Positions 3,978 to 18,121 of a DNA stretch of 44,779 nt are shown in pieces. Source of the DNA: Candidatus Hydrogenedentota bacterium. Its GTDB lineage: Bacteria > Hydrogenedentota > Hydrogenedentia > Hydrogenedentales > SLHB01. The first letter of the stretch is position 1. The number at the start of each line of letters is the position of its first letter. The stretch is taken from assembly GCA_019695095.1 (NCBI GenBank), contig JAIBAQ010000028.1:1-44779 (forward strand), written 5' to 3'. A model generated the notes under the pieces. It was given only the letters and a program-made list of their open reading frames with translations. It was not told where the DNA came from and did not search any database. A program made the position numbers and the translations under genes.

Positions 3978-6570
3978 TAAGTTGACGATAAAAGCCCAAG
4001 AAGCACTTGCCGAAGCGATGGATGCGGCGTCGCAGGCAGGCCATGCAGAAATATCTTCGCTGCATGTCCTTGATGCATTGTTGGCCCAGGAGAAGGGGGT
4101 CGTTGAGTCCATCCTCCAAAGGCTTGGTATTCCCGACGAAACCCTGCGCAATCGCGTCAAGGAGCGCATTGGCTCGTTGCCGCGCATGAGCGGGGCGGCT
4201 GTTCAGCCTGCGATTGGGAGCCACCTCCAGCGCGTGCTGGACGCGGGGTGGAAGGTCGCACAGAGCCTGCGCGACGAGTACCTCAGTACGGAGCATATCC
4301 TGCTCGGCATGCTGAGCGTGCGCGGAGATGCCGCAGGGCAATTGATGCATGACGCGGGCGTCACGCAAGACGCCGTGATGCGCGCGTTGAAGGAAGTCCG
4401 CGGCACACAGCGCATTACCGATCCCAATGCGGAGACCACCTACGATGCGCTGGCGAAATATAGTCGCGATCTGACGCAGCTCGCGCGTGCGGGGAAACTC
4501 GATCCCGTTATCGGCCGCGACGAAGAGATTCGCCGTGTCATCCAAGTTCTGTCGCGCCGCACAAAGAACAATCCGGTTCTGATAGGCGAGCCCGGCGTAG
4601 GAAAAACGGCCATTGCCGAAGGCTTGGCCCAGCGTATTGTCGCGGGCGACGTGCCAGAAGGACTGAAGAACAAGCGCCTTGCGCAACTTGACCTGGGCGC
4701 GCTGATTGCCGGAGCCAAGTTCCGCGGCGAGTTTGAGGATCGACTCAAGGCGGTGCTGCGCGAAGTGGAACAGGCGCAGGGTCAGATCATCCTCTTCATT
4801 GACGAGTTGCACACGCTCGTGGGTGCTGGTTCTGCCGAAGGCGCAATGGATGCGTCGAACATGCTGAAACCGGCGTTGGCGCGGGGCGAGTTGCATTGCG
4901 TTGGCGCAACCACGCTGGACGAGTATCGCAAGCACGTGGAGAAAGACGCCGCGCTGGAACGGCGTTTTCAGCCGGTATTTGTGGGCCAGCCGGATGTGGA
5001 GAGCGCCATTGCCATTTTGCGCGGATTGAAGGAGCGCTATGAGGTACATCATGGCGTGCGGATACAGGATAGCGCTTTGGTGGCTGCGGCAGTTCTAAGT
5101 AACCGTTACATATCGGATCGCTTTCTGCCGGACAAGGCCATCGATTTGATCGATGAGGCGGCGTCGCGGCTGCGGATCGAGATTGACAGCATGCCCTACG
5201 AGATTGACGTGCTCGACCGGCGCTTGCGTCAACTCGAGATTGAGCATCTTGCGCTGAAGAAGGAAACCGACAAGGCAGGCCGCGAGCAGCGCGAAGGCAT
5301 TGAGCGCGAGCAGGCCAATCTTCGCGAGGAGCTCAACGCGAAAAAGGCCCAGTGGCAGGCGGAGAAAGATGTCATCAATGCCATCCGAAAGGTCAAGGAA
5401 GAAATCGACGAGGCAAAACGCCAGGAAGAAATCGCGGAACGAGCCGGGCAACTGGACAAAGTGGCCCAGATTCGGTACGGAGCGCTTATCGAACTGCAGA
5501 AGAGGCTCGACGCGGAGAACGCGCGCTTGGCCGATTTGCAGAAGAGCGGAAGTTTCCTGAAGGAGGAAGTGACCGAAGAACATGTCGCGAAGATCGTATC
5601 GAACTGGACCGGAATCCCCGTCACCAAAATGATGGAAGGCGAGATGGACAAGTTGCTGAAGATGGAAGACAGGCTCGCTGAACGCGTCATTGGTCAACGC
5701 GACGGCATTCGGGTCGTGTCGGATGCGGTGCGACGTGCGCGGGCAGGACTCAAGGAACCGGAACGGCCCATTGGCTCGTTCATCTTCCTCGGACCGACCG
5801 GCGTCGGCAAAACGGAACTTGCGCGAACTTTGGCGGAACTGCTGTTTGACGACGAGAACGCCATGGTGCGGATCGACATGAGCGAATACATGGAGAAATA
5901 TTCCGTGTCGCGTCTGATTGGCGCGCCCCCGGGATACGTCGGCTACGACGAGGGCGGCCAGTTGACGGAAGCCGTTCGACGGCGACCGTACAGCGTCATC
6001 CTGTTCGACGAGATCGAAAAGGCCCATCAGGACGTGTTCAACGTGCTGCTGCAATTGCTTGACGACGGACGGCTGACCGATAGCCAGGGCCGCACAGTGG
6101 ACTTCAAGAACACCGTGGTCATCATGACCTCCAACCTCGGGAGCGAGGTGTTCCAACGTGCGGGCGGTTCTGAAGACGAAAAGGTTGAAGAAGTGATGAA
6201 CGTGTTGCGCCGCCACTTCCGGCCGGAATTCCTGAACCGAATCGACGACATTGTCGTGTTCCACCCGCTACAACGGGAACATATCCGCCGAATCGTGGAC
6301 GTACAGGTGAAGCGATTGGCGAAACGATTGGCCGACAAGCGCATCACCTTGGAGCTGACCGACGCCGCGCGTGACCTGCTAGCCGAGCATGGATTCGACC
6401 CAACATACGGCGCGAGACCGCTGAAAAGGGCGATTCAACGCATGGTTCTGGATCCGCTGGCAATGGAGATACTGGAAGGACGCATTTCCGATGGCGCCCA
6501 CGTTGTGGCTGAACGCGAAGGCGCTGGTCTTAAATTCGAATTGAAAGAACTGGCCGACGCGGCCGCCTGA
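3967..6570 (+). CDS. clpB: ATP-dependent disaggregase ClpB (Hsp100)
   Basis: An 867-residue ClpB of full normal length. Order: N-domain with two Clp repeats (residues 1-145), first AAA+ module with Walker A GEPGVGKT at 207-214 and Walker B/DELHT at about 279, long coiled-coil middle domain with the expected heptads and Arg/Glu-rich text (about 405-525), second AAA+ module with Walker A GPTGVGKT at 609-616 and Walker B 'FDEIEKAH' from about 680, then the C-terminal D2 domain. The middle domain separates it from ClpA/ClpC, and no ClpP-binding IGF loop is apparent. It works with DnaK in the cytoplasm to extract proteins from aggregates. ATG 3967 is preceded by GAGGAGG. No other chaperone gene is adjacent; a hairpin follows the stop. 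Confidence 0.98.
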
Positions 6571-6617: not shown

Positions 6618-6649
6618 TTTGCCCCGGCGCTCAATTGGGCCGGTGCAAA
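6618..6649 (+). terminator. Hairpin downstream of clpB
   Basis: Arms 6618-6628 and 6639-6649 form an 11-bp stem with one mismatch and a 10-base loop, 48 bases after the clpB stop. There is no T-run, so it is a weak intrinsic terminator or an mRNA 3'-end stabiliser. Confidence 0.5.
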
Positions 6650-6695
6650 TAGCAGGACTGAGGTGCATGCTCTAGATTGGATACGCAGACCGAGT

Positions 6696-6744
6696 AAACA
6701 AAAAGAGAGGCGGGCGCATCAAGTGCTGATGCGCCCGCTCTCTC
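6696..6744 (-). terminator. Strong intrinsic terminator of the 52-residue gene
   Basis: On the minus strand a stem of 12 perfect pairs (6727-6738 with 6710-6721) extends by five more pairs after a one-base bulge, closes on a 5-base loop (6722-6726) and is followed directly by TTTTTGTTT. This is a textbook intrinsic terminator, 18 bases past the stop of the small gene. As a stem it could also help end clpB transcripts coming from the other side. Confidence 0.88.
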
Positions 6745-6762
6745 ATTCAGAATCAGGCAATG

Positions 6763-6921
6763 CTATGCTGGCGGCAGAATTGCGGCGAGTGCGCTAAGGA
6801 TTATCGAGAGGAATTCGGAAAGAGAAGAATTAAGAATCGAATGCAGTTGAGACGCGTTTGCATTCATGTTCTGCAGCCAGATGTTCAGATTCTGAGTCAA
6901 AATTTCCATTAGAGTCGGCAT
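6763..6921 (-). CDS. Orphan 52-residue hydrophobic protein
   Basis: A 52-codon frame from ATG 6921 to TAG 6763. It has every part of an independent gene: perfect TATAAT at 6973-6978, AAGGAG seven bases before the ATG, and a strong intrinsic terminator right after the stop. The peptide starts 'MPTLMEILTQNLNIWLQN', has a Ser/Asn-rich middle and a hydrophobic C-terminal segment (about residues 36-50, 'EFLSIILSALAAILPPA') ending in Pro-Pro-Ala. It contains no Arg, Lys or Cys, its only charged side chains are two Glu, and it has one His. It has no signal peptidase site. It could be a small membrane or membrane-surface protein with an amphipathic first half. I do not recognise a family. Neighbours (clpB, PHP operon) give no clue to function. 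Confidence 0.72.
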   Translation of the reverse strand: MPTLMEILTQNLNIWLQNMNANASQLHSILNSSLSEFLSIILSALAAILPPA

Positions 6922-6972
6922 ACAACTACTCCTTCCATTCTTAGACCCCTAGTCAGGACACATTCCGCCGTC

Positions 6973-7003
6973 ATTATACTCCTGAGTTTCCGGAAAGAGA
7001 CAA
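6973..7003 (-). promoter_or_regulatory. Promoter of the 52-residue gene
   Basis: On the minus strand TATAAT (6978-6973) is a perfect -10. TTGTCT (7003-6998) is the nearest -35-like hexamer, at 19 bases, longer than ideal. Transcription would start near 6966, giving a leader of about 45 bases that carries the AAGGAG site. Confidence 0.6.
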
Positions 7004-7262: not shown

Positions 7263-7943
7263 ATGAGACGGCTGAAGGCTGACTTTCACACACATGCCGC
7301 GGACGATCCGCGAGATACCCTACGCCATTCTTCCGAGATGTTGATCGACGCGGCATCGGAAGAGGGAATCGAAGTCTTGTCGATTACCTGCCATGAGCGA
7401 TCCGTTTACACTGAGTCTCTGTCACGGTATGCGGAGAGGCGCGGCATACTCCTGTTGCCGGGTATCGAGGCCATGATTGAAAACTGTCATGTGCTGATCA
7501 TCAATCCGGCCCCCGAGCACATCCGAGCGAGAACATTTGCGGAATTGCGGGCGATTGGGCGAAGAGACGCGGCATTCATTGCCCCCCATCCGTTCTATCC
7601 GACGCCCAATAGCCTGATGCGGCAGCTGAAATTGAACATCGATTTATTTGATGCGATTGAGTGGTGTTCGCTGTACATGGGTCCATTGAATCCAAACGTG
7701 CTGGCGGCGCGGGCGGCTCGCCGGTATGGGCTTCCGATGGTGGGCACATCAGACACGCATGAGTTGCCGTACCGGTGCACCACGTGCACCTGGATTGAAG
7801 CGGAACCGACCATAGCGGGCATTGTTGAGGCAATTCGCAAGGGCAGGGTGGAGTTGGAAACGCGATCATGGTCGCCTCTCCCCGCGGCGCGATTCGCGTT
7901 GTACGCGGCGCGCGGAATAGTGAGTGACTTGGTAGGCATTTAG
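7263..7943 (+). CDS. PHP-domain metal-dependent phosphoesterase
   Basis: A 226-residue protein of the PHP (polymerase and histidinol phosphatase) superfamily. Motifs in order: DFHTHA with His9 and His11, 'SITCHER' around residue 42, 'LLPGIEA' with the bridging Glu near residue 66, 'APHPF' near 107 and 'GTSDTHE' near 160. Together these supply the trinuclear metal site on a distorted TIM barrel. Stand-alone PHP proteins hydrolyse phosphoesters such as nucleoside or sugar phosphates, or act in unknown metal-dependent hydrolyses. No signal peptide, so cytoplasmic. It is the first gene of a plus-strand operon, 20 bases before the GH4 gene, which suggests a link to sugar-phosphate metabolism (inference). 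No clear Shine-Dalgarno precedes ATG 7263, but the metal motif begins seven residues in and excludes a later start. Confidence 0.87.
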   Translation: MRRLKADFHTHAADDPRDTLRHSSEMLIDAASEEGIEVLSITCHERSVYTESLSRYAERRGILLLPGIEAMIENCHVLIINPAPEHIRARTFAELRAIGRRDAAFIAPHPFYPTPNSLMRQLKLNIDLFDAIEWCSLYMGPLNPNVLAARAARRYGLPMVGTSDTHELPYRCTTCTWIEAEPTIAGIVEAIRKGRVELETRSWSPLPAARFALYAARGIVSDLVGI

Positions 7944-16298: not shown

Positions 16299-16368
16299 GG
16301 ATCGAATCGAAAGAGTTCAGAGACATTTAGCCCAAAGTGGTCCTCGCAAATCTATTGGAGCTTGTACC

Positions 16369-18090
16369 ATGCGAACGCACGCATTGTTGGTAGGCGTCAT
16401 CCTTGGTTTGATCCCATTCGCTTCACGCGCACAGGAGCCGGTTCCCGACAAGACGGTCGTGCTGACATTTGACGACGCCGTGAAGTCGCATCTCTCGTAT
16501 GTCGCGCCCATGCTAAAAGAATACGGATTCGGCGCGACGTTCTTTGTGTGCCATCTCTGGATGAATGACACCGAGAACTTCATGTCATGGGAGGACATCG
16601 CGACTCTTCACAAGATGGGGTTCGAGATCGGCAATCACTCGTGGACACATCCCAATTTCGCAGAACCCGAGGCGGCAGCGCGCATCGCAGGCGAAATGGC
16701 CCTGGTAGAGAATGAGTTGGGCAAAGTCGGCGTGCCAAAGCCCGTCAGTTTTGCGTGGACAGGAAACGGTTTTGGACCCGAAGCGCTGCAACGGCTTCGC
16801 AAATTGGGCTACAAGTTCGCTCGTCGAGGCATGCAGCCCGAAGTGCCATATGGCAAACTCGAACCGGGTCCACTGTACGAGCCGCGTCAAAACGATCCAT
16901 TGCTAATCCCCACGTCGCGCGATGGATACCCCGACTGCACGCTGGAGGATATAAAGCGCGTCGTCGAGCAAGCACGTGACGGGCGAATCGCTGTCCTGCA
17001 GTTTCATGGTGTGCCTGATGTAGCGCATCCCTGGGTTCACACGCCTCCAGAGAAGTTCCGTGAATACATGCAGTATCTGCACGATGGCGGCTATCACGTC
17101 ATAGCCATGCGCGACGTCGAGAAGTACATCCCCGCGGCTTTGCCAAAAGACCCGATGATAGAAGTTCGGTATCCGGCAATTGAACCGAGCAAGATGAAGT
17201 TGCCGCAGGAAGTAACCGCAACGCGCGCGGACCTGCCCTTCTGGCTGGACAACATGCTTGTGCAGCATGCGTACTCAGTTGATGAAGCGGCCGAAGTGTG
17301 TTGGATGTCGCCGCAAGAAATTGGCGAGCAAGCGGGCAAACTTGGCATCGTCCCTGGAACAACCAAGCCCTCTTCAAGACACAATCGAGTCCGCGTGTTG
17401 CCGTATCCCGGTGGCCGTCATCCGCGAATTGGTTTCCTCGAGGGTGCCATCGACCCATTGCGCGGAACAAAGGCAAGTGCCTTTCTCCCATGGAAAGGCG
17501 GCGGTTACGTTGTGGTCGACTTGCCGGAGGCAATCTTCAGCAATCTGGGATTGACGTATCTGGCTCACACGCACGTGCCCACCATTTGGAACGAGCAGAA
17601 TGTGGTGATTGAGAATGTGGATTGGACTCGTGACCCCAAGGGCGGGCTTCGTCTAGACCAAACGTTGCCCAACGGAGTCCGCTTTGGATCGTCTATCACT
17701 CCTGACAAAGCCGGTGCCGACATGGAGCTATGGTTGGAAAACGGCACGAAGGAGCCGTTGACCGGCATGCGTACACAGATCTGCGTGATGCTGAAAGGCG
17801 CGCCGGGGTTCAATGCACTGACTCAGGAGCGAAAGACGTATGATTCGACCGCTGCCGCGGTCGGGTCTGAGGATGGCAAGCGCTTCATCTGCGTGGCGTT
17901 CGACCGTTGCGGACGGAGCTGGGGCAATGAGGATGTCCCATGCATTCACGCTGACCCGATCTTGCCAGACGCCGCGCCCGGAGAACGGGTTTCGCTCAAA
18001 GGCCGCCTCTGGTTCTATCAAGGATCGAATATCGAGCGCGAATTGCGGCGCGTTACGTCGAAGCTCAAGATGAAACCGGTCAAACCCTAA
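16369..18090 (+). CDS. Secreted polysaccharide deacetylase with long C-terminal extension
   Basis: A 573-residue protein with signal peptide (1-21, 'IPFASRAQ'). Residues about 28-260 are a NodB-type deacetylase: TFDD at 33-36 gives the catalytic base and metal Asp, and 'HSWTHPNF' with His90 and His94 gives the two metal His. 'FAWTGNGFGPEALQRLRKLG' and 'AVLQFHGVPD' fit motifs 3-5. It should remove N- or O-acetyl groups from a glycan outside the cell. The last 300 residues are not part of NodB; they are beta-rich ('MELWLENGTKEPLTGMRTQI') and unidentified, perhaps a binding domain. ATG 16369 has GGAG at eight bases and a clean signal peptide; the frame is open upstream but that part overlaps the amidohydrolase gene. 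Confidence 0.9.
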   Translation: MRTHALLVGVILGLIPFASRAQEPVPDKTVVLTFDDAVKSHLSYVAPMLKEYGFGATFFVCHLWMNDTENFMSWEDIATLHKMGFEIGNHSWTHPNFAEPEAAARIAGEMALVENELGKVGVPKPVSFAWTGNGFGPEALQRLRKLGYKFARRGMQPEVPYGKLEPGPLYEPRQNDPLLIPTSRDGYPDCTLEDIKRVVEQARDGRIAVLQFHGVPDVAHPWVHTPPEKFREYMQYLHDGGYHVIAMRDVEKYIPAALPKDPMIEVRYPAIEPSKMKLPQEVTATRADLPFWLDNMLVQHAYSVDEAAEVCWMSPQEIGEQAGKLGIVPGTTKPSSRHNRVRVLPYPGGRHPRIGFLEGAIDPLRGTKASAFLPWKGGGYVVVDLPEAIFSNLGLTYLAHTHVPTIWNEQNVVIENVDWTRDPKGGLRLDQTLPNGVRFGSSITPDKAGADMELWLENGTKEPLTGMRTQICVMLKGAPGFNALTQERKTYDSTAAAVGSEDGKRFICVAFDRCGRSWGNEDVPCIHADPILPDAAPGERVSLKGRLWFYQGSNIERELRRVTSKLKMKPVKP

Positions 18091-18121
18091 GCGCGCCTAT
18101 CAACACGCATGCTCCACAGCG

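Follow-up and report, generated by a model that had tools for sequence, protein, structure and literature searches.

The 692-bp gap between clpB (plus strand, ending at 6570) and a gene of the PHP family (plus strand, starting at 7263) raises the question whether a complete small gene lies there on the minus strand. The gap belongs to a 44,779-nucleotide stretch of DNA, here called the window, which forms contig C28 of a draft genome of 6.77 Mb. Among named relatives, those nearest to the window's PHP protein come from Candidatus Hydrogenedentota genomes. If real, the candidate would be a complete, self-contained and lineage-restricted small gene from an uncultured phylum, and it would indicate that in genomes poor in strong terminators an orphan one can point to such a gene. 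On its own, a 52-codon gene does not answer an open question.

Signals of a candidate minus-strand unit

The initial annotation had described a TATAAT, an AAGGAG, a 52-codon frame and a terminator in this gap. All four elements are present in this order, each in its described place:

6973..6978, minus strand: TATAAT, a possible -10 box that lacks a good -35; the hexamer occurs at chance frequency in the gaps of the genome
6929..6934, minus strand: ribosome-binding site AAGGAG, with a 7-nt spacer to the ATG
6763..6921, minus strand: 52-codon frame, ATG to TAG, with a predicted long amphipathic helix of 11-residue repeats
6696..6738, minus strand: intrinsic terminator, with a stem of 13 pairs (6738-6710) and a T-rich tail reaching 6696

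Chance statistics were obtained from a 445-kb sample of the same genome, which consists of the window and about 400 kb (L076-L095) and in which 313 genes were called. The gene caller was crude, and true coding sequence is left in places in the set of gaps; one case is the greater part of 16299-18121 in the window, where a 639-amino-acid frame had been removed as it overlapped a neighbour.

The terminator is strong evidence and a real outlier in this genome. Its stem has 13 pairs, nine of them G-C, with a loop of 3, and is followed by the tail CTCTCTTTTTGTTT up to 6696, so that the T-run is on the minus-strand side. The 445 kb contain only 15 hairpins that have 9 or more pairs and are followed by a T-rich tail; nine of them are in gaps, and seven of these nine gap terminators sit 3-36 nt behind a gene on the same strand; the one studied here starts 24 nt past the stop of the 52-codon frame. 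The combination of a small frame, a 6-base ribosome site and a strong terminator at most 90 nt further on was found once in the 445 kb against 0.005 expected; this and the other chance figures for the unit were calculated post hoc, with the locus already picked, and therefore exaggerate the surprise, although the terminator is still a real outlier.

The ribosome-binding site is of a strength that is reached by few genes (a site of at least 6 bases in at most 25 of 313). As a pointer to small genes it has little weight, since frames of 30-90 amino acids with a 6-base site are found in the gaps at chance level (5 found, 5.3 expected). The promoter evidence is weak. TATAAT is not enriched in the gaps (14 found against 11.9 +/- 3.5 expected in 445 kb), and a consensus scan found no acceptable -35 at normal spacing for the hexamer at 6978-6973. 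The closest -35-like hexamer, TTGTCT, sits at a 19-nt spacer, which is why the promoter scan reports none at this position. The earlier judgment that the unit is very likely expressed thus stands in part: the terminator gives good support to a putative minus-strand unit with its end at about 6696, translation of the frame is moderately supported by the properties described below, and the promoter is weak.

Altogether, the genome has few strong intrinsic terminators (for 313 called genes in the 445 kb, 9 are located in gaps). Strong ribosome sites are also uncommon, and a site of at least 4 bases is absent in 100 of the 313 genes of the sample. Most genes therefore seem to start and end by other signals.

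Coding potential of the frame

The codon usage of the 52-codon frame is mildly gene-like. With a codon score of 0.068 bits per codon it outranks the other five reading frames and 93% of 562 small gap frames of the 445-kb sample, but among real coding stretches it ranks only at the 10th percentile. Upstream of the terminator the RNA has no excess of structure when its folding is compared with shuffles (z +0.69). In Rfam the RNA of the unit matched no family; matches below the threshold were limited to animal microRNA models and are due to the terminator hairpin. The codon score, the helical periodicity described below, the unstructured RNA and the missing Rfam match together favour a protein over a small RNA, short of proof. 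Translation of 6921-6763 is moderately supported by the codon score, the periodicity and the distance from stop codon to terminator. The initial annotation had also placed the frame below the usual gene-calling length, which is doubtful, as common gene callers take frames from 90 nt.

The predicted peptide

As read from the translation, the peptide contains two Glu and no Arg, Lys or Cys, in agreement with the first description; Asp is absent too. Evidence that does not depend on codons comes from its hydrophobic periodicity, whose whole-spectrum maximum lies at 98 degrees per residue, i.e., 11 residues per three turns. Only 0.2-0.5% of peptide shuffles match this periodicity at any angle from 85 to 115 degrees (p about 0.002-0.005), and among 292 gap frames of 40-70 amino acids the peptide ties second (p about 0.004). 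Four 11-residue repeats can be written, LMEILTQNLNI / WLQNMNANASQ / LHSILNSSLSE / FLSIILSALAA, in which the hydrophobic stripe is formed by L4/W15/L26/F37, L8/M19/L30/I41 and L12/A23/L34/L45, and the other face of the predicted helix has uncharged Asn, Gln and Ser. AlphaFold predicts a single helix over residues 4-48 with a pLDDT of 92, in a model made without an alignment and of a kind, the single-sequence helix, that is easily predicted. The 19-residue hydropathy peaks at 1.76 at the C-terminus, a borderline value for a transmembrane segment. A membrane-active or membrane-anchored protein, as had been proposed, fits these properties, but they suggest a long amphipathic helix rather than a classical single transmembrane anchor. 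For the further proposal, a regulator of a neighbour, we find no support.

Homologues and gene neighborhood

Apart from the peptide itself, its own genome contained no significant homologue and hence no second copy. Neither did 67 other Candidatus Hydrogenedentota genomes from the same family, order and phylum yield a significant match, nor did viral contigs, phages and plasmids, nor Pfam, NCBIfam, PHROGs, PADLOC and the PDB. No match was obtained in GTDB species contigs, in a search with exact 8-residue seeds that reaches close relatives only, and a DNA comparison gave no convincing relative. Weak matches in three genomes (G021, G017 and G036) were rejected, being frames with stops or pieces of large proteins. 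The conservation check proposed for the 6763-6921 translation accordingly met no relative in these collections, and because they hold no homologue there is no sign of purifying selection. As in an orphan gene, a homologue outside the lineage was absent from the collections searched, in which the genus has no second species.

In the relatives, flanks of at most about 1.5 kb around PHP homologues contained no clpB. The end of clpB could be cleanly read in some seven relatives, and none of them has a similar frame after it. With no homologue of the peptide, no PHP gene beside clpB and no such frame after it, the gap is lineage-specific as far as visible.

Repeats and hairpins near the locus

The genome also contains a dispersed element that measures about 186-190 bp and has two hairpins (TAGTCCGCAATTTGCACCGG...GAGAAATCCGGGATAG; L096-L125). 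At least 40 copies have 87-100% identity to the query copy and there are 198 candidate places in the genome, whereas the element was not found in 24 genomes of the same family. It resembles a MITE in its sharp ends and in an inverted repeat within it (GGATTTCTCGCGAACACACT...AGTGTGTTCGTGAGAAATCC) that folds strongly. Of this element the window contains no more than a piece of 36 bp from the first hairpin (6618-6653, minus strand), about 48 nt past the clpB stop. This piece lies outside the unit, and a unit carried by a dispersed repeat is therefore out. Three relatives (L053, L061 and L065) carry, 90-131 nt past clpB, plus-strand terminators of 13 pairs that are alike (CGGGRCCGGANGTCCTCCCCAGCNTCCGGTCCCG and one close variant of it), and L053 has two more near-identical copies of the hairpin within 800 nt downstream, which suggests another dispersed hairpin family.

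Alternative explanations

A terminator is a sign of transcription and not of translation, and the unit could be the gene of a non-coding small RNA that is about 270 nt long and has a terminator of its own, in which case the inner frame would be accidental. The chance-level frequency of gap frames with a 6-base ribosome site and the failure to find a protein homologue are compatible with this. The body of such an RNA, however, folds no better than shuffles and has no Rfam match, a relative was not found at the DNA level either, and codon score and helical periodicity speak for the frame; we regard a small RNA as somewhat unlikely. The hairpin might also mainly end the clpB transcript, possibly as a bidirectional terminator, with the frame arising by chance. 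It lies 139-168 nt past the clpB stop, and the three relatives too have a plus-strand terminator behind clpB, at 90-131 nt. But in the relatives the T-run is on the plus strand, whereas the hairpin studied here has it on the minus strand and its tail on the plus strand reads TCTCTCATTC; moreover the properties of the frame would become coincidental, which leaves this explanation improbable.

Size (52 amino acids), the hydrophobic C-terminal third and an own transcription unit would suit the toxin of a type I system, where an antisense RNA controls a small hydrophobic protein. Such toxins usually carry basic residues, of which the peptide has none. It is present as a single copy and has no PADLOC match, and the consensus scan found no plus-strand promoter or terminator for an antisense RNA over the frame, so that a toxin is very unlikely. 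A leader peptide ahead of an attenuator is out, as no gene on the same strand follows the terminator.

We therefore lean, with a little better than even confidence, towards a lineage-restricted small gene on the minus strand with its own intrinsic terminator, encoding a 52-residue amphipathic helix that is membrane-associated or self-assembling. The 52-codon frame would probably be a real gene of an ordinary kind. The unit would be transcribed convergently with clpB and its transcription would stop at its own terminator. Translation of the frame would give a peptide forming a single long amphipathic helix, the C-terminal third of which may be sufficiently hydrophobic to insert partly into a membrane. 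Given the uncharged polar face and the hydrophobic end, we infer that the helix would most likely lie on a lipid surface or pack with its own copies. A more specific proposal is a stand-alone and nearly chargeless bacterial 11-mer-repeat helix that arose recently within a single lineage of Hydrogenedentota and coats an internal surface of lipid or membrane; this seems distinctly improbable to us.

Comparison with known systems

Genes of this type, small, intergenic and lacking annotated homologues, have been described before. In E. coli O157:H7, 210 of them were listed by ribosome profiling (PMC5597208), and our candidate resembles them as a short, homologue-less intergenic frame with its own signals that is poorly recognised by codon-trained methods; for the E. 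coli genes, however, translation was measured, whereas expression of the candidate is predicted. With the CydX-type small membrane proteins of bacteria (PMC4325964) the peptide shares its short length, hydrophobicity and single helix, but unlike them it has no partner operon, no conservation and no basic residues, and its N-terminal half is polar.

In manner of working the peptide may resemble perilipins, apolipoproteins and alpha-synuclein, whose helices with 11-residue repeats bind lipid surfaces (PMC5889406). Along the predicted helix of the peptide, hydrophobic positions likewise recur with 11 residues per three turns (peak at 98 degrees), and its polar face, too, has many small uncharged residues. 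The known proteins are from animals, longer and charge-balanced, whereas the peptide has about four repeats, only two Glu and a more hydrophobic end. Family libraries and the PDB gave no match to a known 11-mer-repeat family, and the comparison is one of a possible manner of working and not of membership.
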